34,499 bases of DNA, taken from positions 1 to 34,499 of the forward strand of contig JAIDOW010000090.1 of assembly GCA_029063085.1 (NCBI GenBank), written 5' to 3'. The translations under genes and the position numbers were made by a program. Of the stretch, positions 23,510-34,499 are shown in pieces. Below the pieces are notes generated by a model. The model saw only the letters and a program-made list of their open reading frames with translations, did not search any database and was not told the origin of the DNA. Source of the stretch: Lachnospiraceae bacterium (GTDB lineage: Bacteria; Bacillota; Clostridia; Lachnospirales; Lachnospiraceae). Numbering within the stretch: position 1 is the first letter of the stretch; the number at the start of each line of letters is the position of its first letter.

Positions 23510-24583
23510 TCATTTATTATTTAAAATCTCTATTATGGCATCTCCATATTTTTCTATTTTTATTTTGCCAAAACCAGAAACCTTTAATAATTCTTCCTTA
23601 TTCTGAGGCTTTTGGTCTATCAAATCATTCATTTGCGCATTATTAAATATAAAATACGGTCTTACATTCTCATTTTGGCTCTGTTCCCTCCGAAAATCCT
23701 TTAAACGTTTTTCTAACTCCGCCCTATCAATAGTATCATTTATGCTTTCTCTTATCGTATTTTCTTCAAAAATCAAATCCACTGTCTCTTTGGCATCCTC
23801 TATGCAATCCAAGTGTTCCAAATTCTCTACTGCCTGTATCATCTCTTCATATTTTTTGACATAATCTGATTTATTTGGTTGACTATGGTCTAAATAGAAT
23901 TGTGCCAGCTCCCTCATCTCCTCTACACCCATATTACTATCTTTTTTTAAATTGTCCAAATCTTTTATATAAGTAATTAGCTGATCTGCATGAATAACCT
24001 GCTGTTTGATTACTTTTTTCGCAAATCTATCATTTAAACAGGTTTTGGAGTTAGTCAATACAACTACTGATTTATAATTATCTTCAAAAGATTTTTCAAA
24101 TATCAGCTTAGTCAAAAAATTCCCTTTATTGCTTTTTCTAACTTCCTTTAAAACCAGTAAATGTTTCTGGTTCTGTGTAATCGGTGAATACATTTTCTCC
24201 CTGACACGTTTACCAGACAATTCATAATCGCGAATAAAATTTCCTCTATTATTAATTTCAATATTGCCAATCAAATTTTTACATTCTAACACATAGATAT
24301 GCTTTCGTGTTATGACTATGTAATCAATTTGTGCTGATAAATCTCCAATCTCAAGATAAATATCCCGTAATACATACATATCTATCCCGCTGTTTTTCAA
24401 CTCAAAAGCAACATTATTTTCTCCAATTTCACCATAGGAAGCAAATTTAATTTGCGTTTCTATTTCCTTTTTTATTTCTTCTGGCGCACTTTCCATTAAC
24501 CCTTGCAACTTTTCAATAAAAATACCTGTATCACTTGTTTCCTTTAAAAAAACCGTTCCTATCTTTTTTGTGAATAATCCCAT
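23510..24583 (-). CDS. NERD nuclease-related domain + HRDC domain protein
   Basis: 357 residues. The NERD domain (about 48-165) has GEIGENNVAFEL, Asp87 in QIDYIVI and Glu100-x-Lys102 in VLECKN, a PD-(D/E)XK-like set. Residues about 200-280 are helical and Glu-rich. The last 65 residues form an HRDC-like fold (IFNNAQMNDLI, LLKVSGFGKIKIEKYGDAIIEIL), which binds DNA in RecQ-type helicases. A nuclease acting on DNA is likely (inference from family). It has its own promoter and a GGAGGAG site before the ATG. It is the leftmost gene of the island. Confidence 0.85.
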   Translation of the reverse strand: MGLFTKKIGTVFLKETSDTGIFIEKLQGLMESAPEEIKKEIETQIKFASYGEIGENNVAFELKNSGIDMYVLRDIYLEIGDLSAQIDYIVITRKHIYVLECKNLIGNIEINNRGNFIRDYELSGKRVREKMYSPITQNQKHLLVLKEVRKSNKGNFLTKLIFEKSFEDNYKSVVVLTNSKTCLNDRFAKKVIKQQVIHADQLITYIKDLDNLKKDSNMGVEEMRELAQFYLDHSQPNKSDYVKKYEEMIQAVENLEHLDCIEDAKETVDLIFEENTIRESINDTIDRAELEKRLKDFRREQSQNENVRPYFIFNNAQMNDLIDQKPQNKEELLKVSGFGKIKIEKYGDAIIEILNNK

Positions 24584-24790: not shown

Positions 24791-25177
24791 CTATAATATT
24801 TTCTTTAATTTATCAATCAAACCTTCATCTGCCGGTAACCAGTCCACACTATCTAGTGTTTCTTTGGTTAGCCATCTCGCCGCTTCATGTTCCTTCAATG
24901 TTAAATCACCGGATATAACCTGACAAAGGAAACAATGCATTGTTAAATGGAACTGGGGGTAATCATATTCTACAGTATCAATTTGCTTTCCAACTGTAAT
25001 CTCTGTATCCAACTCTTCTTTGATTTCCCGAACAAGTGCTTCCGCAGGCATTTCTCCCTGTTCTATCTTGCCTCCTGGGAATTCCCATCCGTCCTTAAAC
25101 TCTCCATATCCACGCTGGGTTGCAAATATTTTGTCCCCATCCTGTATAATTGCTGCTACTACTTCCACTATTTTCAT
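24791..25177 (-). CDS. Nudix hydrolase, MutT/(deoxy)NTP pyrophosphohydrolase type
   Basis: 128 residues with an intact Nudix box, GKIEQGEMPAEALVREIKEE, matching GX5EX7REUXEEXGU up to the final Gly position. The N-terminal VVAAIIQDGDKIFATQRGYGEFKDGWEFPGGK and C-terminal EHEAARWLTKETLDSVDWLPAD are typical of 8-oxo-dGTPase MutT/CTP-pyrophosphohydrolase proteins. It would hydrolyse (deoxy)nucleoside triphosphates to monophosphates. It lies 77 bp after the PLD/DEAD helicase gene with no terminator between, so the two are probably one transcript. Sanitising the nucleotide pool or depleting modified dNTPs are both possible. Confidence 0.9.
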   Translation of the reverse strand: MKIVEVVAAIIQDGDKIFATQRGYGEFKDGWEFPGGKIEQGEMPAEALVREIKEELDTEITVGKQIDTVEYDYPQFHLTMHCFLCQVISGDLTLKEHEAARWLTKETLDSVDWLPADEGLIDKLKKIL

Positions 25178-25254
25178 ATCCTTGGTCCCCTGTAAATATT
25201 CTCTTTCAATAGTCTTTCTACCATGTTCAAACTCTAATTTAAAATAAAGACTCC

Positions 25255-28179
25255 CTACCCTTCTGTTATGTAGTCATAAATATCATCCCGAACAGGCACG
25301 TCCAACTGGTAAGTTATCTCAAAAGCATCATCGTTTGTAGATTCCATGTGAATTGGTTCCGGTTCTCCTACTGCATATATTTCTCCAAGAAAATAAAATT
25401 CTTTTGCTTCTTTATCATTCTTATTTTTCCGCACAAACAAAAATATTCTGTTCTCCTTATCTTCCTGAGTTTTCTTATATATGTGTAACACATCACTGGA
25501 AGTAACTTTCCTTGGATGCTTAGATAATGCGATCAACTCATTTTTTGAAATAAATCGATCCTCATAAGCAATAGCATCCTCCGATTTTTCATAGTTGATA
25601 AATACTGGCAATGTCTTTGTAAATGCATCATAAAAATAACCACCTATATTTTGTGCATTCATATTTTTCTTCCAGTTCAATAATCGACAAACATCCTCAT
25701 AGGTGTATTTCTGATAAAGCTGGAAATTGGTATCCTTATATCGCTTAGAATAATATTTTTCATACCGTCCCATACCAAAATCCACCAATTCATAAACCAT
25801 ATTGGCAAACACCTTATTTTCTAACATATTTTTAAACCGTCTGCTAATTTGATAATTCTCCTTGTTGTCTGCTTCCACAAATACACAGCTCTCAAATTTT
25901 TTCTTTTCCTCTTCTTTGGGAAATGCGTTTGTCAAGTTTAAAATAACTGATTCCTGCTCTTGTTCTGTAAGGTTGATTCCATACTTTTTTATTAGTGATG
26001 TTTTGAAAAAATTCATGACATTTGTTTTAGCAAGTCTTAAGTCCCGTAACATTTCCAATTCATGAATTCTTTTTCCCTTTGCAATTTTTCTTGACAAATA
26101 TTCAATTATAGCTTCTTCCGCAGAAGATAATTCTATCGCATATTCATCTTCATATTTTGCCAAAAACGCATGATAAGAACCTAATTTTTCAAAAATCTTT
26201 GTAATGTCAATCTCCCCATATTCTCCAAAATCCTTAATAGATGGTATCCGTCCTAATTTGTATTTCAGTTTTTGATAAGATTCTTTGATTAATCTCATAT
26301 CATTTGTTTTTGCAGTATCAATTGATGCATAAATCCGTTTTTTCGAAACCTCGTCAAAATGAATTGTAGAACTTCCTGGAATCACTTTAGATCCTTCCCT
26401 GACATATCGACGAATAGTGTCCTTATTATAGGAACGGTCACCTGAAAGAGCAATTGGAATCATAAAATTGTTCATATAATTGCCAATAAAATCTAAAATA
26501 ACAACATATTCCTTCCCTTCCGCTTTCCGCAATCCTCTTCCCAACTGTTGAATAAATACAATCGGACTTTCCGTTGGACGAAGCATAATCACCTGATTAA
26601 TCTCGGGTATATCTACACCCTCATTAAAAATATCTATTGTAAAAATATAATCAAGCTTGTCTTCTCTATTATCATCTGTTAATCTCTCAATACATTCCTC
26701 CCTCTTATTTTGGGAATCATCTCCACAAAGAAATTCTGTATGATATCCACGTTCATTAAATTTTTTGGATAATTCAATCGCCTCTTCTTTTCTACTACAA
26801 AATATTAAACCTTTCACACGGTCACCACTATATCCGTAATAATTTGCTTTTTCTATTACATAGTCAACACGGTCATCACAAATCAGATTCATAAAATTAC
26901 GCACACCTGTATTGTCATCAAATACTTCACCATTAATTTCCAAATCAGTAATACCAAAATAGTGAAATGGACAAAGCAAGTTTTCTTCCAACGCCTGCTG
27001 TAAACGAATCTCATAGGCGATATTATGATCAAAGAGCTGATAGATATCAAAATCATCTGTACGGTCTGGACTAGCTGTCATCCCCAGCCAAAACTTTGGT
27101 TTAAAGTATTGAATAATTCGTTGATAACTATCTGCTCCTGCACGATGCACTTCATCAATAATAATAGTATCAAATTCGTCCGGCTTAAAGTGTTCTAAAG
27201 TATCCTTTTTTGCCATCGTCTGCATAGTAGAAAACACATAATCCGTCTTGTAGTTTTTGAAATTACCAGAAAGAAGACCGAACGTCTTTGTATCTCCAAA
27301 TACTTTTTGATAGCTATTCATTGCCTGCTTTGCAATCTGTTCCCTATGCACTAAGAATAATGCTTTTTTCGGATTATCCTCTCGAAGTGCAAAAGCAGAA
27401 GCATATGTTTTTCCTGTACCAGTAGCAGAAATCAATAATGCCCTTTTTGCACCATCATTTCGTAACTTTTGTAAATTATGAATAAATGCCAGCTGCATGG
27501 AATTAGGTTGTAATCGATACTGGTCAATAGATGGTATTTCAGCTTGCTTTGCAATCCTCTTCTGCTTTTTGATCAACTCATAATTCAAGCGATACCGTTG
27601 AATAAAATCACCATAGGTTGATGTATATTCTGATTCCCACAGTTCTCTAAACTCTTCTATAATTTCCTTTGCATATTCACCTTGTTCCGTTGATACAAGT
27701 CTCGTGTTCCACTCTTTATTCTTCGTAAGTGCACTGAGTGTCATATTGGAACTTCCAACAATAATACGATAAATTTCCTCTTCTCTAAAAATATATCCCT
27801 TTGTATGAAAACCAATATTGGAATCATTTGCTGAATACATTCTAATTTCAATATTTTTTAATCCTGCCAGCTTATCTAATGCCCTCGGTTCACTAAAATT
27901 CAAATAATCTGTCGTTAAAATCCTACCTGGAATCTGTTTACGCTCTAGCTCCTCTAAAATCTGTAATAATGGTGTAATTCCACCCATTGTAATAAAAGCA
28001 ACACTAATTGAAAATTCGTCACAATTTGATAATTCGTTTTCGATGGAAGATAAAACCTTGCGTCCTTCCTTGTAATTATTAGAAATAAATTGTGGCTTAT
28101 AAGCAAGGTTAGAGGGAATAGTGGAATCTATAAATGCGGTTGTGAGGGATTTTTGAAATTGACGTGTATGTTGATTCAT
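25255..28179 (-). CDS. PLD-nuclease / DEAD-DEAH helicase / DUF3427 protein
   Basis: About 974 residues. Residues 30-165 form a phospholipase-D-type nuclease domain with one HKD half-site (His125, Lys127, then SSN 143-145). An SF2 helicase follows, with Walker A SATGTGKT (251-258), DEVH (342-345) and TASPDR (368-373); the second helicase lobe has FIQQLGRGLRKAEG and VILDFIGNY. The C-terminal about 350 residues match DUF3427 (SSDVLHIYKKTQEDKENRIFLFV). These proteins are found in restriction-like and defence loci. Likely role: translocate on DNA and cut it. The frame runs to 28218, but AGGAG about 10 nt before the ATG at 28179 sets the start. It is followed by the Nudix gene on the same strand. 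Confidence 0.9.
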   Translation of the reverse strand: MNQHTRQFQKSLTTAFIDSTIPSNLAYKPQFISNNYKEGRKVLSSIENELSNCDEFSISVAFITMGGITPLLQILEELERKQIPGRILTTDYLNFSEPRALDKLAGLKNIEIRMYSANDSNIGFHTKGYIFREEEIYRIIVGSSNMTLSALTKNKEWNTRLVSTEQGEYAKEIIEEFRELWESEYTSTYGDFIQRYRLNYELIKKQKRIAKQAEIPSIDQYRLQPNSMQLAFIHNLQKLRNDGAKRALLISATGTGKTYASAFALREDNPKKALFLVHREQIAKQAMNSYQKVFGDTKTFGLLSGNFKNYKTDYVFSTMQTMAKKDTLEHFKPDEFDTIIIDEVHRAGADSYQRIIQYFKPKFWLGMTASPDRTDDFDIYQLFDHNIAYEIRLQQALEENLLCPFHYFGITDLEINGEVFDDNTGVRNFMNLICDDRVDYVIEKANYYGYSGDRVKGLIFCSRKEEAIELSKKFNERGYHTEFLCGDDSQNKREECIERLTDDNREDKLDYIFTIDIFNEGVDIPEINQVIMLRPTESPIVFIQQLGRGLRKAEGKEYVVILDFIGNYMNNFMIPIALSGDRSYNKDTIRRYVREGSKVIPGSSTIHFDEVSKKRIYASIDTAKTNDMRLIKESYQKLKYKLGRIPSIKDFGEYGEIDITKIFEKLGSYHAFLAKYEDEYAIELSSAEEAIIEYLSRKIAKGKRIHELEMLRDLRLAKTNVMNFFKTSLIKKYGINLTEQEQESVILNLTNAFPKEEEKKKFESCVFVEADNKENYQISRRFKNMLENKVFANMVYELVDFGMGRYEKYYSKRYKDTNFQLYQKYTYEDVCRLLNWKKNMNAQNIGGYFYDAFTKTLPVFINYEKSEDAIAYEDRFISKNELIALSKHPRKVTSSDVLHIYKKTQEDKENRIFLFVRKNKNDKEAKEFYFLGEIYAVGEPEPIHMESTNDDAFEITYQLDVPVRDDIYDYITEG

Positions 28180-28226
28180 TTGTCTTCTTCTCCTAATTAT
28201 TCTATGCTTAATTATCATAAGGAAAA

Positions 28227-28249
28227 GGCAGATTCAAATAAAATCCGCC
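28227..28249 (-). terminator. Weak terminator-like hairpin between the unknown gene and the helicase
   Basis: An 8-bp stem with one mismatch (28227-28234 with 28242-28249), followed by TTTTCCTT on the minus strand. It may partly separate the dGTPase unit from the helicase-Nudix unit. Confidence 0.4.
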
Positions 28250-28271
28250 CTATCTTAATAATAATTCTTTG

Positions 28272-28859
28272 CTATACTGTTCTCGCCTCATAAAAGACTA
28301 AATATTTTTCTCCAACTGCCTGTTTCTTAAAATTACAATCATATGCGAAACTCCATTCAAGCAATATACTTTTTCCCTCTGTTATTTCATCCCTAAACAA
28401 TCTTTTTATTGAATTTATATTACTTAACAATTCCTCTATCTCTTTTTCATTTAGGAAATCAGGATTTCCATCTGTAATCAATTTATCGCCAATATATCTA
28501 AGCGTAACATCCCTGTCCGAATATGTTACCATATTCCACAAATCCTCTTTAACTGCTTCAATAATAATCTCATTTGATTTAACTTCAAGCGTTCCACTCT
28601 TTTCTGCTATAAAATATGGATAATATATAACAATACCTCTATCTCGCAATTCTCCAGATAAATTATTAGCAAATTCCCAAGCATCCTTTGCATTAGCCCC
28701 CACCTTACGTGGCAAGTTTAAGTCATCACCTTGATATACAGCAGAACGAATTGTCCATAATTTTTTATCATCAAAAACAATATTATTATTAAACTCATTC
28801 CACTTAATGGTAGGTAATCCTGAATGCTTTAATTCAAAAAATCCCAATAATTTATTCAT
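28272..28859 (-). CDS. Unknown 195-residue protein downstream of the dGTPase-like gene
   Basis: 195 residues, not recognised. It has no signal peptide or membrane segment and mixes strands and helices: FFELKHSGLPTIKW, a central LWTIRSAVYQGDDLNLPRKVG, IVIYYPYFIAEKSGTLEV, an acidic-basic middle (EAVKEDLWNMVTYSDRDVTL) and a C-terminal SILLEWSFAYDCNF. No nuclease or NTPase motif is evident. It starts 23 bp after the dGTPase-like gene stops, with AAGGGG about 8 nt upstream, so the two are surely cotranscribed. An accessory or regulatory partner (inhibitor, activator or sensor) of the HD hydrolase is the simplest guess. Confidence 0.8.
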   Translation of the reverse strand: MNKLLGFFELKHSGLPTIKWNEFNNNIVFDDKKLWTIRSAVYQGDDLNLPRKVGANAKDAWEFANNLSGELRDRGIVIYYPYFIAEKSGTLEVKSNEIIIEAVKEDLWNMVTYSDRDVTLRYIGDKLITDGNPDFLNEKEIEELLSNINSIKRLFRDEITEGKSILLEWSFAYDCNFKKQAVGEKYLVFYEARTV

Positions 28860-28882
28860 ATATAAACCCCTTGATATTATAA

Positions 28883-30184
28883 CTATTTTTTTATAAATTT
28901 CTCGTAAACAGTTTTTACATATTCGTCCATCATGCCAGATATATAATCTACAATTAATCTCTTTTGCAAATCTACTTCATTTATTGTATCATATCTAGGT
29001 TTATATTGTCTAACAATATTTGATACTCTATATTCCGGCGGTAAATATTGCGTATTTTCCACAAAAAAATAAAACAATGCTTCTAGCATCTCTTTTCCTT
29101 TTGCTTCATACGCATATACCTCATCTTTATTGGTCACACACTCAAATATTGTTTTCTTTAAACCACTTGCAAGTTCTTTGTATCTTACAAATCCTATTTC
29201 CTCATCTTTTTGAGTTCCTCGTATCTTCTTCTCCTTTTTAGTTAAATTAACAATACCTATATCATTTATTAATGTATTAATAATCCGAGAGGTTATCTCT
29301 TTTCGATACAATTTTGAAAACTCTGCTGAATCAACACCCCTTTTTTTGAATCCCGCATTTTTTTTACTTTTATTAATTATTTTGTCAAGTTTTTTTATAC
29401 TTTCAACGCTATCTATCTTTGTAGAAAATTCATGAAAGATTTCATCAACTGTAAACACTCCTAATCTTAATCCATCTTCAAAATCATGTGCAGCATATGC
29501 TATCTCATCTGCAATATCCACTATTTGAACATCTAAAGTACGCAACTCTACTTTTGTGTCATCAATAATTTTACTAACTAGATTATAGTCACTTTCATAT
29601 AAAAATTTATCATATCTCAGCTTACTATTTTGAAGAATTTGAAATGGATTATAATATTTCAGAATACCCAACAACGTCCTATTTGTCAAATTTAGTCCTT
29701 GATAAGAGTGCCGCTTTTGTTCAACAGTTGTTAAAATTCTAAAAGTTTGTGCATTTCCTTCAAACCCCCCAAACTCTTTACACAACTCATTTAAAAACTT
29801 TTCCCCTGCATGTCCAAAGGGTGGATTTCCAATATCATGAGCTAATGCACACGCTTCAACAATATACATTTCCTTCCTTTTATATTTAATTGCTGTTGCA
29901 ATTGATCTAGCTATTTGTGCTACCTCTAAACTATGAGTCAATCTATTCCTTATAAACTGATCACTCTCTATTCCATAAAGTTGCATTTTACCTTGTAAGC
30001 GCCTAAACGATGATGAATATAAAACTCTTGTATAATCTCGCTGAAACTCTCCATCCAGCCTTTTTCGATCTCCTTTGGAATCATATTGTCTTTTTTCTAA
30101 TTCCTTGTTATTAGTAAGTGGCATAAGAAATTTTTCTCTAATTTCTTCACTTTGCAATTCTAATGTTGTTTTTTCTTTATCCAT
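28883..30184 (-). CDS. dGTPase-like HD-domain dNTP triphosphohydrolase
   Basis: 433 residues. The N-terminal QRDYTRVLYSSSFRRLQGKMQ is a hallmark of the dGTPase family. Metal ligands are complete: His84 (RLTHSLEVAQ), His116-Asp117 (ALAHDIGNPPFGHAGE) and Asp226 (DIADEIAYAAHDFEDG). GNAQTFRI follows the HD motif as expected. It would hydrolyse dGTP or other dNTPs to the nucleoside and triphosphate. Some members of this family defend against phage by dNTP depletion (established for other systems). GGAGGA precedes the ATG. It is the first gene of a pair with the 195-residue unknown. A decayed IS3 element lies directly upstream and may have disturbed its promoter. Confidence 0.9.
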   Translation of the reverse strand: MDKEKTTLELQSEEIREKFLMPLTNNKELEKRQYDSKGDRKRLDGEFQRDYTRVLYSSSFRRLQGKMQLYGIESDQFIRNRLTHSLEVAQIARSIATAIKYKRKEMYIVEACALAHDIGNPPFGHAGEKFLNELCKEFGGFEGNAQTFRILTTVEQKRHSYQGLNLTNRTLLGILKYYNPFQILQNSKLRYDKFLYESDYNLVSKIIDDTKVELRTLDVQIVDIADEIAYAAHDFEDGLRLGVFTVDEIFHEFSTKIDSVESIKKLDKIINKSKKNAGFKKRGVDSAEFSKLYRKEITSRIINTLINDIGIVNLTKKEKKIRGTQKDEEIGFVRYKELASGLKKTIFECVTNKDEVYAYEAKGKEMLEALFYFFVENTQYLPPEYRVSNIVRQYKPRYDTINEVDLQKRLIVDYISGMMDEYVKTVYEKFIKK

Positions 30185-30230
30185 AATAATCCTCCGTAAC
30201 TACTATACTATATTCATTCTCTTAAATCTT

Positions 30231-30932
30231 TGGAGTTATGCTAAAAACGACACGCCAAGTAAACATACCCTCGTCAACCTGTATCAATCCAGCGGCAAAT
30301 CTCAAGCAGCTCTCTATAAAGAATACGGTATATCTGCCACTGCTCTCGCCCGTTGGATCAAACAATACTCAACTGTTGAAACCGATGATGGCGAAGTCCT
30401 GACCGCCAGGCAAGCAAAAGAACTTCAAAAACGCAACGCCCAACTTGAACAGGAACTTCTCATACTAAAAAAGCTATTGCCATCTTCTTGCCACACTCAA
30501 ACAGCGGTTAGAGGCTGTTACAAGCTCAGCTTCCAACATGGCATTAAGCTTCTCTGCAAAGTCTTGATGACAAACTCGTAATGACTGCGTTTAAAAAGCT
30601 TATGATAGACGAAACCAACCAACAGGTCTTATGTTCCACTCTGATCGAGGATCTCAATATACTACTTTTACATTCAAGCAGTTATTAGATACTCTTAATG
30701 TGATGCAATCATTTTCAAAGAAAGGCTATTCCTTCGATAATACCTGAACGAATGTTTCTTCAAATATCTCAAAAAAGAAGAAGCCAACAGGAAAACTTAT
30801 CACTTTTTACAAGAGTTCCAGTTATACAATTTTGAGTATATTGAGAAATTCTACAACTTCAGGAGACTGCATGGTTCTCTCGGAATGTTAACACCTGCCA
30901 ATAAAGAACCTCTCTTCTGCGATCAGGCTTAA
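30231..30932 (+). pseudogene. Decayed IS3-family (IS150-like) transposase genes
   Basis: Remnants of orfA and orfB. orfA keeps its SD (TGGAG) and HTH region (ALYKEYGISATALARWIKQY, then LTARQAKELQKRNAQLEQE) but has lost one base at the ATG (30238) and one A in the ILKK run near 30467. In orfB the segment LSFQHGIKLLCKVL is followed by a large deletion removing the first catalytic Asp. GLMFHSDRGSQYTTF holds the second Asp, and after a further frameshift near 30747 NECFFKYLKKEEANRK holds the Glu. The reading frame ends at a TAA at 30930-30932. Terminal inverted repeats were not identified with confidence. The element cannot transpose by itself. It lies between two defence-type units and opposes their direction. 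Confidence 0.85.
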
Positions 30933-30962: not shown

Positions 30963-33338
30963 CTACTCCCTCCGTATCACCCCAATCACAACCCCACTGA
31001 TATAAAAATCCTCTACCTGTATCACAATATCCTGATACTTAGGATTCCCTGGATGCAGAATAATTTTATTCTCCCCTACATAATGAAACTGCTTCACAGT
31101 AGCTTCATTTGTTGTCAAATCCCCCCCCACAATAATATTACCTTCCTTTGCAAAAGATTGTTTCCTTACCACTATTTTATCGCCATTTAATATATTAAAA
31201 TTAATCATACTATCACCAGACACTTCCAATATAAATTTCATATCTGGTCCACTTATCGCTTCTAACGGAACCATTTCCTTCCTGTCATACTCTTCATTTA
31301 CGTATTTGAGATTTCCCGCTGCAACACTGCCTTTTACCGGAAGACAAGTATAGTCAAGTGCTGTATTATTTTCCTTGTTTCGCAGGCAAGACTCTCCGGC
31401 AGTTGTCTGCTTATATTCCATCTGTCTGCCGTGTACAAAATCAAAATACCTAAAAATCTCATATTCTCCCACTTCCATTTGACAGACCGGTATATCATCG
31501 CAGGCGACAAATGTTCCATCCATATATTTTTTGACAATCTGCTTTTTTCCATCCGTCACTACAATATACTCTGGAGCATTGCCAGGCACAATATAACATT
31601 TAACCTGTCTCAGTGCTTCTGCCAAATCTGACCCTGAACTTTTTGTTTCCACATAAATAAAAGGAACTTCCCTTTCATCATCCTTGTATACCCCAATATC
31701 CACAAAAAAAGTTTTACTTCCACATTTTACACAAACCTCTGATTGCATACGGCGGATCGGATATCCATACCGGGTCTGAAGCTGATTTAAATACCATTGT
31801 CTTACCTTTTCTTCCTCATTATTTATCGTTTTCTCTACCCTATCAAAAAATTGGTAATCTTCTATCGAAAGGGAAAAACATTCTTCTTCCTCATCATCCG
31901 AAAGCCTCAGATATTTAGATTCAATTTCACCTATATATACTGATTCCTTCTTACTACTGGTTACATACAGCATCTCCTTTGCTCGGGTCATTCCGACATA
32001 CAGTAATTTTCGTTCCACAGATAACATTTCGGTTGAATACGGCAAAATTCCATCATTTACCCCAGCAATAAATACAACCGAAGCTTCCAAACCCTTAATT
32101 GAATGTAATGTAAACAGCTTAATCTTATCCACACAAAAAGGGGATATCTCTGATTTCTCCAATTCTTTTGCCAATTCTGCATCAATTCCATGTTTCAAAA
32201 AATAATCCTTTAAAGTCTCCAGATATCCCTTATTTCTTGCCACAACAACAATCTCACCAAGTCGATACCTGATTGCACATTTCTTTATCTCCTCTGTAAT
32301 ATAGGCAAACTCCTTCACCTGCTCTTCAAAATGACGATACTGCGGTCTTGCCCCATTTCGTTCTATAGATTCTGGTTCCACATAATCACTACTCATTTTC
32401 AAATCCTTGTCATTGTTAATAAGAGAATATGCCGCCAGTGCAATTTCTTTGGTCGTCCTATAATTCTTTGATAACACATTGGATTTGCCAGACATATCAA
32501 ACCCAACACTTTTAAAGCTCTGCTTCGAAAGCCATGACTGAGAATAAATACTCTGTGCAACATCTGCGATAAAAATAATATTGCTCTTCTCCGATTCTTC
32601 ATACAGATTTCGTATAATCTCCAATTGGGCACGAGATAAATCCTGACTTTCATCCACAATAATATATCTGTATTTTTTAGGCCTTATCTCACCACTTTTC
32701 ATTTTATTAAGTGCTCTGACTGCTCTTGTGGTATAATCTATTAAATTTGCTTTCCTAAGCAATTTCTCATACATTACAAACGTATCAAAAATAGCTGCAC
32801 GATTTTCGGAACGTTTTAAAAGTCGCATACGGTTTTCCCCTATACTATTCCGACCTAAGCGATCTACATCCATATATTCTTCCTTTTTCAAATACATGCA
32901 TCCTTTGATCCACTCTATCTCTTCTAACAGAAACTGCACATTTTTATCTTGAAGTATCGTACTGTTTGGATGCTGTTCCTGCACTTTCTGTATTGCAAGC
33001 TTCATTTTCTCCCTTTTCACACCGTCTTTTGCAATAGGAATTTTCTTTATATCCTCTGGCAGTACGGAATAAATCACACTGTCTATTGTCTTAACCGAAA
33101 CTTTTTTGTCATCAATGGAGACCCCATATTCCTGACATAAGTATGTCATATATTTAATCAATGTTTTATTATATGTAACAACTAATACTTTTTCATTTTG
33201 CATCTCCTTTAACTGCTGCATCGCTACCAGTTTAAAAAGTGCGACCGTCGTCTTTCCGCTTCCCGCAACTCCTTTAATCAGGCTTTGTCCTGATGTCTTA
33301 CTGTTGATAATTCGTATTTGATCTACACTTAAATCCAT
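30963..33338 (-). CDS. SF1 helicase / HsdR-type nuclease / LexA-type autoprotease fusion
   Basis: 791 residues. The SF1 (UvrD-like) helicase has Walker A GVAGSGKTT (23-31), DESQD (229-233), FTLHSIKGLE (409-418) and VGMTRAKEMLYV (448-459). Residues about 524-605 match the HsdR N-terminal type of PD-(D/E)XK nuclease: Asp547, Glu564-x-Lys566 and DLAEALRQVKCYI. Residues 664-791 align with the C-terminal domain of LexA: cleavage site SVAAG (Ala674-Gly675), VSGDSM (Ser710), NGDKIVVRK, EATVK (Lys749) and ISGVVIGVIR. There is no HTH. LexA-type domains cleave themselves when RecA filaments form. Here cleavage would cut off about 117 C-terminal residues and might switch the enzyme (inference). The gene starts 17 bp after the DUF2075 gene. 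Confidence 0.9.
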   Translation of the reverse strand: MDLSVDQIRIINSKTSGQSLIKGVAGSGKTTVALFKLVAMQQLKEMQNEKVLVVTYNKTLIKYMTYLCQEYGVSIDDKKVSVKTIDSVIYSVLPEDIKKIPIAKDGVKREKMKLAIQKVQEQHPNSTILQDKNVQFLLEEIEWIKGCMYLKKEEYMDVDRLGRNSIGENRMRLLKRSENRAAIFDTFVMYEKLLRKANLIDYTTRAVRALNKMKSGEIRPKKYRYIIVDESQDLSRAQLEIIRNLYEESEKSNIIFIADVAQSIYSQSWLSKQSFKSVGFDMSGKSNVLSKNYRTTKEIALAAYSLINNDKDLKMSSDYVEPESIERNGARPQYRHFEEQVKEFAYITEEIKKCAIRYRLGEIVVVARNKGYLETLKDYFLKHGIDAELAKELEKSEISPFCVDKIKLFTLHSIKGLEASVVFIAGVNDGILPYSTEMLSVERKLLYVGMTRAKEMLYVTSSKKESVYIGEIESKYLRLSDDEEEECFSLSIEDYQFFDRVEKTINNEEEKVRQWYLNQLQTRYGYPIRRMQSEVCVKCGSKTFFVDIGVYKDDEREVPFIYVETKSSGSDLAEALRQVKCYIVPGNAPEYIVVTDGKKQIVKKYMDGTFVACDDIPVCQMEVGEYEIFRYFDFVHGRQMEYKQTTAGESCLRNKENNTALDYTCLPVKGSVAAGNLKYVNEEYDRKEMVPLEAISGPDMKFILEVSGDSMINFNILNGDKIVVRKQSFAKEGNIIVGGDLTTNEATVKQFHYVGENKIILHPGNPKYQDIVIQVEDFYISGVVIGVIRRE

Positions 33339-33355: not shown

Positions 33356-34468
33356 TTAATAACTATCAATACACCTATACTGGATTGCATTTATCTTTTC
33401 AAATAATTCTTTATTTTCTACCACAAGAATACATAATTTTTCTCTTGCCCTTGTAACTGCCTGATAAAACAGTTTCGGAAACAAATAGTCTGGATTAGGA
33501 TGTTGTATCGCTTGTAAATCGCCATTTTCTCCATATTGAAAATTATTATCCATCATAATCATGACATTATCAAATTCTTGTCCTATTGCATGATGTGTAT
33601 TAATATCACCGCCATAATGATCAATTGAATTTGAATAATATCTTGACTGTGTATATCCAATAAATACATAGTTCTTATTGTCTCTATAATAGGATATAAT
33701 TTTTACAGCTTCTTTGAAATTATTCGCATATAACAGTTCTATATTGCTATATCTATATTTAATCTTTGATGCCTCTTTTAAATTCAGCATTGATGCAATA
33801 AAATATGTAATCTCCTTGTTTACTCGTATCCTGACTGATAATTCAAATTCATTAAAATTACTTTTACTATTTAATACCAAAGGTATATTTCTGTTTTTTT
33901 CTTTATTAGATAACACTTGTGTAAAATCATATGAAAATACACATGGTATCTTCTTTTGATAAGAAGTTTTCAATATTGTATCTAAATCCTCATAATAGAT
34001 TCGTTGCGTTTCATCAACAAATATAAATTGATAATTTCCTAATATTTCTTCTTTTAAATCCTTGGCAGCAATTATGTCCATTCTGTGTAAATATGCATTT
34101 AAATAATTGTGTCCTTCACATATAATTCCACAATGTATCATACAACATTTTCCATATTGGCAACATTTTTTTGCTAAATCATATAACAACAATGTTTTTC
34201 CTGTTCCTGCATGTCCCTTTATCCCATATAATAAATTACCATTTCTATTAATTAGAAAAGATAGTATTTTCTTTTCAATATCTTCTTGTTGTTGAGTCAA
34301 GAAATATTTTTCTGAAAGAAATCTTTCTGGTGAATTCAATGGTGAAATCAAAAAATCTTTTGCACAAAACAAATCATCTATATCTTTTGCAATATAATCA
34401 TTAATTTCTTTTATAGCATTTACCAAATCCTGTATAGAACACTTTTGCATATTACCAGTTTCTAGCAT
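33356..34468 (-). CDS. DUF2075-type P-loop helicase/ATPase
   Basis: 370 residues. An N-terminal helical stretch (1-75) is followed by Walker A GHAGTGKT (85-92), Walker B FIFVDETQR (148-156), SYDFTQ (179-184), an ELSVRIRVNKEI motif, and near the C-terminus HHAIGQEFDNVMI and QAVTRAREKLCIL, the SF1-type motifs V and VI. This set fits DUF2075/Schlafen-like nucleic-acid ATPases. AAGGAA precedes the ATG by about 6 nt. It is followed after 17 bp by the helicase-nuclease-LexA fusion, so they are one operon. The right window edge lies 31 bp beyond its start, so upstream operon members cannot be excluded. The function is probably DNA or RNA remodelling (inference). Confidence 0.85.
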   Translation of the reverse strand: MLETGNMQKCSIQDLVNAIKEINDYIAKDIDDLFCAKDFLISPLNSPERFLSEKYFLTQQQEDIEKKILSFLINRNGNLLYGIKGHAGTGKTLLLYDLAKKCCQYGKCCMIHCGIICEGHNYLNAYLHRMDIIAAKDLKEEILGNYQFIFVDETQRIYYEDLDTILKTSYQKKIPCVFSYDFTQVLSNKEKNRNIPLVLNSKSNFNEFELSVRIRVNKEITYFIASMLNLKEASKIKYRYSNIELLYANNFKEAVKIISYYRDNKNYVFIGYTQSRYYSNSIDHYGGDINTHHAIGQEFDNVMIMMDNNFQYGENGDLQAIQHPNPDYLFPKLFYQAVTRAREKLCILVVENKELFEKINAIQYRCIDSY

Positions 34469-34499
34469 AAACAGTTCCTTTGTATCTTTTACAAAAGTA

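Follow-up and report, generated by a model that had tools for sequence, protein, structure and literature searches.

What does a helicase-nuclease gain from carrying the self-cleaving domain of LexA at its C-terminus? The question is raised by a gene in a 34,499-base window, the complete contig JAIDOW010000090.1 from a Lachnospiraceae bacterium (assembly GCA_029063085.1; 3.3 Mb, 96% complete). The gene, which has a ribosome-binding-like AGGAGG immediately 5' of its ATG, encodes a 791-residue protein joining a superfamily 1 (SF1) helicase, an HsdR-type nuclease and a LexA-type S24 autoprotease (Table 1). We tentatively propose that this arrangement is a built-in SOS off-switch on a self-contained helicase-nuclease, in which RecA-triggered self-destruction would amount to restriction alleviation in cis. 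A literature search, which left most subscription-journal papers outside its reach, found no description of a helicase-nuclease-S24 fusion; the protein thus represents a widespread family, present in dozens of bacterial species, without earlier description in the literature searched, new in its fusion arrangement and built of known kinds of domain.

Domain architecture and catalytic residues

Four Pfam families matched the protein above their curated cut-offs: UvrD-helicase (2.3e-23), UvrD_C (1.1e-28), HSDR_N_2 (4.1e-20) and Peptidase_S24 (2.9e-21, residues 668–785). The LexA-type catalytic domain recognized at the C-terminus in the initial annotation was confirmed by the Peptidase_S24 match and by the NCBIfam LexA model TIGR00498, which aligned with 7.6e-26 over model positions 79–201 of 203 alone, i.e. 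the C-terminal domain, in agreement with the absence of a DNA-binding helix-turn-helix (HTH) that had been noted. At 91 bits the protein scores below the cut-off of 110.95 that the model sets for LexA orthologues. It differs from the LexA repressor (TIGR00498, PF00717) in lacking the HTH and the overall layout of a repressor: a helicase-nuclease precedes the cleavage site. Structure prediction, proposed earlier for this region, gave an S24 fold, and the predicted domain was closest to LexA in RecA filaments. Its fold matches include UmuD, a polymerase subunit, and the phage CI repressors, which belong to the same S24 self-cleavage family and neither of which is, to our knowledge, fused to a helicase or nuclease.

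Conservation was assessed in an alignment of 70 rows, comprising 63 intact loci (see below) and seven others; three rows are duplicates obtained by another route, leaving 67 distinct homologues. Ala674-Gly675, Ser710 and Lys749 were found in the translated open reading frame at the positions first assigned to them, and the serine and lysine are present in all 67 homologues, as are the nuclease Asp, Glu and Lys, while Ala674 and Gly675 are each present in 65. The majority residues at the cut, Ala-Ala-Gly, reach fractions of 0.90, 0.97 and 0.97, compared to mostly 0.2–0.4 for residues 655–671 (0.67 for P667 and G670). The conservation that the initial annotation called for holds throughout for Ser and Lys, and fails for the Ala-Gly bond in the Fusobacteriota seen. 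As the catalytic residues and the bond are conserved, self-cleavage of the S24 domain is very likely, as judged from sequence.

The attached PD-(D/E)XK nuclease was likewise confirmed, with D547, E564, K566, Q578 and Y582 invariant in 70/70 rows and both the D...ExK and the QxxxY signatures present. The helicase had been described as a full SF1 helicase, which is correct for its motifs (Walker A, DExQD, Q, NYRTT, TxHxxKGLE and VGMTRA), seven key residues, one per motif, being invariant in all 70 rows. It does not extend to the 2B subdomain, which is mostly missing: by sequence alignment only, 15 residues (388–402) take the place of 177 in PcrA (379–555). The Foldseek list for the helicase part is headed by UvrD, PcrA and Rep, and FBH1 is also among the neighbors. 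Domains, catalytic residues and cleavage bond were assigned from sequence, and the fold from a predicted model.

Spread and conservation of the fusion

A contig scan of named genomes with the single window protein as query gave no match; when the query was an alignment (A2) of the motif region from seven homologues, at least 206 relatives were obtained among 588 candidates. The best 80 of these were fetched as loci and underlie all 80-locus counts. The fusion was full length and intact in 63 of them, the S24 part being present in every one and some lying in complete genomes, which bears out the fused architecture across homologues and rules out a single-sequence fusion or assembly artefact. 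Clostridia and Bacilli (Lachnospiraceae, Clostridium, Planococcus, Carnobacterium, Bacillaceae) account for most of the 80 loci, alongside two Fusobacteriota, a Desulfosarcina and a few contigs of metagenome-assembled genomes under other labels; the named rows nearest to the window protein in the tree are Lachnospiraceae. Within the same bacterial family, 397 genomes searched at E 1e-30 returned nine matches, six full length (own included) and three helicase only, and 398 genomes of the phylum searched at 1e-60 returned 18, of which 15 (own included) matched over the full length.

Over the 70 rows, the helicase has a mean pairwise identity of 48%, the nuclease one of 46% and the S24 part one of 44%; the helicase and S24 distance matrices correlate with r 0.92 (maximum of 999 shuffles, 0.16). 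The simplest reading is one old fusion, selected in all three parts. Among the other 17 loci, L023 lacks its N-terminal part, five (L036, L038, L080, L087, L088) are cut by contig ends, L095 is a fragment, the Evansella locus L059 has no S24 domain, and L098 and L099 have a different architecture. In the remaining seven (L033, L034, L045, L060, L077, L086, L093) the gene is split over two or three frames, by sequencing errors or by real inactivation. The helicase-only relatives L011, L012, L013 and L099 carry a different N-terminal extension, RelE/ParE-like by eye.

The family was also sought on mobile elements. Three phage records matched, none over the full length, and none of ten viral-contig relatives is full length; of 35 matching plasmid records, one, an Ilyobacter megaplasmid, holds a full-length copy. 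A phage or plasmid gene was rejected on these grounds. An unverified phage record (L151, 2267–3613) encodes an HTH-S24 protein that shares 44.6% identity with the window's fusion over the S24 part; the protein encoded next shows an HEXXH motif by eye. In five genomes of genus g469 the family gene is no more than about 34 kb from the beginning of contig C1, one match being partial and containing a stop; by eye, it adjoins a peroxiredoxin-like gene in L117, L118 and L119, the three regions inspected, and has gyrase-like genes near it in one.

Trigger and direction of the switch

The initial annotation had placed an SOS-type, RecA-dependent switch directly on the enzyme, an interpretation that is partly supported. 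In the mechanism that we tentatively propose, the intact protein of an undamaged cell would act on DNA, most likely foreign DNA and possibly in repair. Damage to the host would give rise to RecA filaments on single-stranded DNA, which the LexA-type domain would bind; the loop ahead of the dyad would then enter the Ser710/Lys749 site and A674-G675 would be cut in cis. Fragment 1–674, ending in -VAA and deprived of the S24 domain (probably the dimerization module), would be destroyed by ClpXP, so that the helicase-nuclease would be removed when the host's own recombination intermediates were at risk. RecA is the probable trigger, given the homology and the missing bond in a phylum where no LexA was detected. 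The degron and the direction are suggested by the -AA end and by analogy with known LexA-like proteins; of all the steps, the direction is the least secure, though an off-switch is likelier than an on-switch.

The end of the predicted N-terminal product is V-A-A in 35 and I-A-A in 25 of the distinct homologues, together 60/67, and in the genome that holds the window the tmRNA tag has -YAA as its end. Cleavage of E. coli LexA and of streptococcal IrvR is reported to expose a hidden ClpXP degron at the same place (PMC5742171, PMC7101444). As the -VAA/-IAA end occupies the place of this LexA-type degron, self-destruction is preferred with modest confidence. A parallel is offered by EcoKI, whose HsdR is depleted by ClpXP in restriction alleviation; alleviation in that work did not depend on LexA cleavage (PMC11109961), so the two cases would share a logic rather than a pathway.

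Evidence on the trigger comes from the Fusobacteriota. Only Ilyobacter (L014) and a fusobacterial metagenome-assembled genome (L090) lack Ala-Gly among the 70 rows. The LexA model gave no match above the NCBIfam cut-off in 80 Fusobacteriota genomes (G790, G795–G873), whose completeness is unstated; six weaker LexA-like matches were found at 1e-20, three of which are the helicase-nuclease fusion, namely Ilyobacter again and two new members, both without Ala-Gly. In L087, a fifth fusobacterial locus, the contig ends ahead of the S24 part. The four members form one clade in a helicase and nuclease tree (SH-aLRT 99), and the loss of Ala-Gly is thus counted as one event. LexA was present in 8/8 checked carriers with intact Ala-Gly, the window's own genome aside: all five other same-family carriers, Planococcus, Clostridium uliginosum and Desulfosarcina. 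Such a pattern, with the bond kept alongside LexA and lost where none was found, would be expected of a cut that depends on RecA/SOS. That the fusion replaces LexA in LexA-less hosts is not supported, as the five other same-family carriers have LexA.

The same conserved catalytic set would also serve an on-switch, in which the S24 domain inhibits the nuclease or helicase by packing or enforced dimerization and RecA-stimulated cleavage frees an active enzyme that attacks DNA once phage or damage exposes single strands. The N-terminal product would keep helicase and nuclease joined, the neighbors are of defence type, and UmuD is a known case of activation by cleavage. We nevertheless regard this as unlikely, since an active helicase-nuclease at every host RecA filament would harm host repair, and the N-terminal product would bear the LexA-like -VAA/-IAA end, by which the corresponding fragments of LexA and IrvR are directed to ClpXP (PMC5742171, PMC7101444). 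More improbable is turnover independent of RecA, where slow constitutive cleavage would make the enzyme short-lived and its level would follow synthesis. The precedent is IrvR, also from Bacillota (PMC7101444); the window gene has no LexA box upstream, and the only LexA-like match in its own assembly is the fusion. Against it stand the resemblance of the predicted S24 domain to LexA in RecA filaments, the LexA genes of the eight checked carriers and the loss of Ala-Gly in a phylum without detected LexA.

We give slightly less weight still to a role as a mere docking or dimer module, by which the S24 domain would tether the helicase to RecA filaments, e.g. for stripping, or dimerize it, cleavage being incidental. 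Fusobacterial members do retain the domain without Ala-Gly, and UvrD and FBH1, both found among the Foldseek neighbors, are helicases known for recombinase removal. Docking alone does not, however, require the Ser, Lys and Ala-Gly that persist in all 65 distinct non-fusobacterial members at a mean S24 identity of 44% (70 rows).

Several observations weigh against the proposed off-switch. The P2 alanine may be no more than an inheritance from LexA, and some S24 proteins, such as IrvR, cleave themselves independently of RecA (PMC7101444). The link between loss of Ala-Gly and absence of LexA is a single coincidence, which cannot prove RecA/SOS dependence; moreover, the Fusobacteriota keep Ser and Lys, unexpected under pure loss of function, and a divergent LexA could be missed there, as the model exceeds its cut-off in just 6/14 control genomes. 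LexA was searched for and not found in the window's own assembly (96% complete), where the fusion itself is the sole LexA-like match. The organism has RecA, and as its recA carries a LexA-type palindrome box, GAACAAATGTTC, directly ahead of the start, an assembly gap is likelier than a LexA-less host; the palindrome is not enriched genome-wide (20, vs 32 for the control). The Evansella member (L059, 7302–9215) lacks the S24 domain altogether. Some carriers, e.g. Ilyobacter, sit among housekeeping genes, and 37 of the 59 loci with both neighbors in view have no same-strand neighbor (open reading frame of 100 amino acids or more) within 100 bp.

The Evansella gene ends after the nuclease and has an altered N-terminus, with no S24 remnant found downstream; either the gene has decayed or the form is one that naturally does without S24. 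Control of the family by LexA at the level of transcription was rejected: upstream of the window gene the best candidate matches 5/8 positions of the LexA-box consensus, and 7/8 positions are matched in 3/70 upstream regions of the family, of which two are copies of one, compared to 7% of 1400 control windows.

Among known proteins, repressors and UmuD undergo self-cleavage stimulated by RecA. If the proposed mechanism is true, SOS would reach beyond transcription and control an enzyme directly, its output acting on a protein rather than a promoter, with RecA filaments directly controlling a restriction-type helicase-nuclease. It would also offer a simple molecular means to keep a DNA-attacking enzyme off the host's own repair intermediates.

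Genomic surroundings and related systems

The Nhi/AbiO-like neighbor (33356–34498) lacks about 126 N-terminal profile positions and its frame is open to the contig end. On the other side, positions 24791–30184 form a probable minus-strand operon (dGTPase, 195-residue protein, PLD/SF2/DUF3427 protein and NUDIX hydrolase) with the NERD-HRDC gene beyond; dGTPase and NUDIX are two nucleotide-cleaning enzymes adjoining a restriction-like helicase.

Table 1 Features of the window, with residues of the fusion protein where applicable
Feature	Position	Strand	Basis or remark
Fusion gene (P0001), 791-aa SF1 helicase, HsdR-type nuclease and LexA-type S24 autoprotease	30963..33338	-	Open reading frame, Pfam, NCBIfam
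SF1 (UvrD/PcrA-like) helicase, residues 6–466, without most of a 2B subdomain	31941..33323	-	Pfam, Foldseek, alignment
Walker A GVAGSGKTT, residues 23–31	33246..33272	-	Lys29 invariant in 70/70 aligned rows
HSDR_N_2 PD-(D/E)XK nuclease, residues 509–617	31488..31814	-	Pfam PF13588, 4.1e-20
Nuclease active site E564-T-K566	31641..31649	-	D547 at 31698–31700
Predicted beta strands between nuclease and S24 domain, residues 626–654	31377..31463	-	Prediction
LexA-type S24 autoprotease domain, residues 664–791	30966..31349	-	Pfam, NCBIfam, fold match
Predicted self-cleavage bond A674-G675 in VAAG	31314..31319	-	N-terminal product would end in -SVAA; 65/67 distinct homologues
Catalytic Ser710 (VSGDSM)	31209..31211	-	67/67 distinct homologues
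Catalytic Lys749	31092..31094	-	67/67 distinct homologues
Nhi/AbiO-like defence protein, C-terminal part	33356..34468	-	Stop 17 bp before fusion-gene start
Transposase N-terminal fragment	30075–30581	+	HTH_Tnp_1, 4.3e-06; between dGTPase and fusion gene
dGTPase	28883..30184	-	PADLOC dGTPase, 7.6e-109
195-aa protein	28272..28859	-	No family match (Pfam, NCBIfam, PADLOC)
PLD, SF2 helicase and DUF3427	25255..28218	-	PADLOC mREase_IV, 1e-211
MutT-like NUDIX hydrolase	24791..25177	-	Homologues near 2/79 other family loci
NERD-HRDC protein	23510..24583	-	Pfam

Homologues of the neighbors were counted at 79 other family loci (L014 and L020–L097). The PLD/SF2/DUF3427 protein recurs near ten of them and the NERD-HRDC protein near eight, in five as the gene directly upstream. 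A DUF3427 gene occurs in 17 of 60 family genomes, one copy each, from which about 0.2% of loci would have one within 8 kb by chance. As the ten include relatives possibly without DUF3427 and the loci are related, this co-location is indicative only. Searched with PADLOC at 1e-15, a set of 130 neighbors from 20 carrier loci gave matches to 179 models (25 of them listed) and a set of 133 proteins from 19 control regions, hand-placed in 15 of the carrier genomes, to eight. These are counts of models, not proteins, and helicases match many models: at most four neighbors share a model (mREase_IV and others), and at most three controls. McrC and GmrSD neighbors of family genes were identified by Pfam. 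A fixed operon partner was ruled out, with a same-strand gene within 100 bp upstream in 10/61 loci and downstream in 19/60. The gene thus appears to stand alone, often in defence neighborhoods without being tied to them. A defence role is plausible for the family, and not general, given the housekeeping neighbors and the 37/59 loci without a close same-strand neighbor. At L020 (9743–12091) the family gene is followed after 29 bp by an AAA_13 ATPase (PF13166, 6.5e-37), and a clustered homologue, of a cluster common to four loci, lies downstream at L050 (10056–12410).

The fusion protein was compared to known helicase-nuclease systems. The motor of HsdR is of the SF2 type and its partners are HsdM and HsdS; in contrast to HsdR and type IIG enzymes (e.g. 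BsaXI), the fusion has an SF1 motor, is mostly a stand-alone gene and contains a built-in protease, and no HsdM or HsdS match was found by Pfam or PADLOC among the six neighbor proteins scanned. AddAB, AdnAB and RecB, which are among the helicase Foldseek matches, share the order of an SF1A helicase followed by a PD-(D/E)XK nuclease in one chain; the fusion has another nuclease subfamily and no partner subunit was seen, and we know of no S24 domain in those enzymes. The best 25 of its 40 PADLOC matches cover the helicase or the nuclease only, none the full length, and the top ones, Gabija GajB and NERD+UvrD (C3a187), are confined to the helicase part. GajA was not matched among the six neighbors scanned by PADLOC; on the upstream side of the fusion gene the contig continues for 1.2 kb. 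Taken by itself, the S24 part scores above the LexA cut-off of NCBIfam in all three named carriers examined (Planococcus, Clostridium and Desulfosarcina), and the Ilyobacter member is annotated merely as 'S24 family peptidase'; automatic annotation can thus hide the enzyme.
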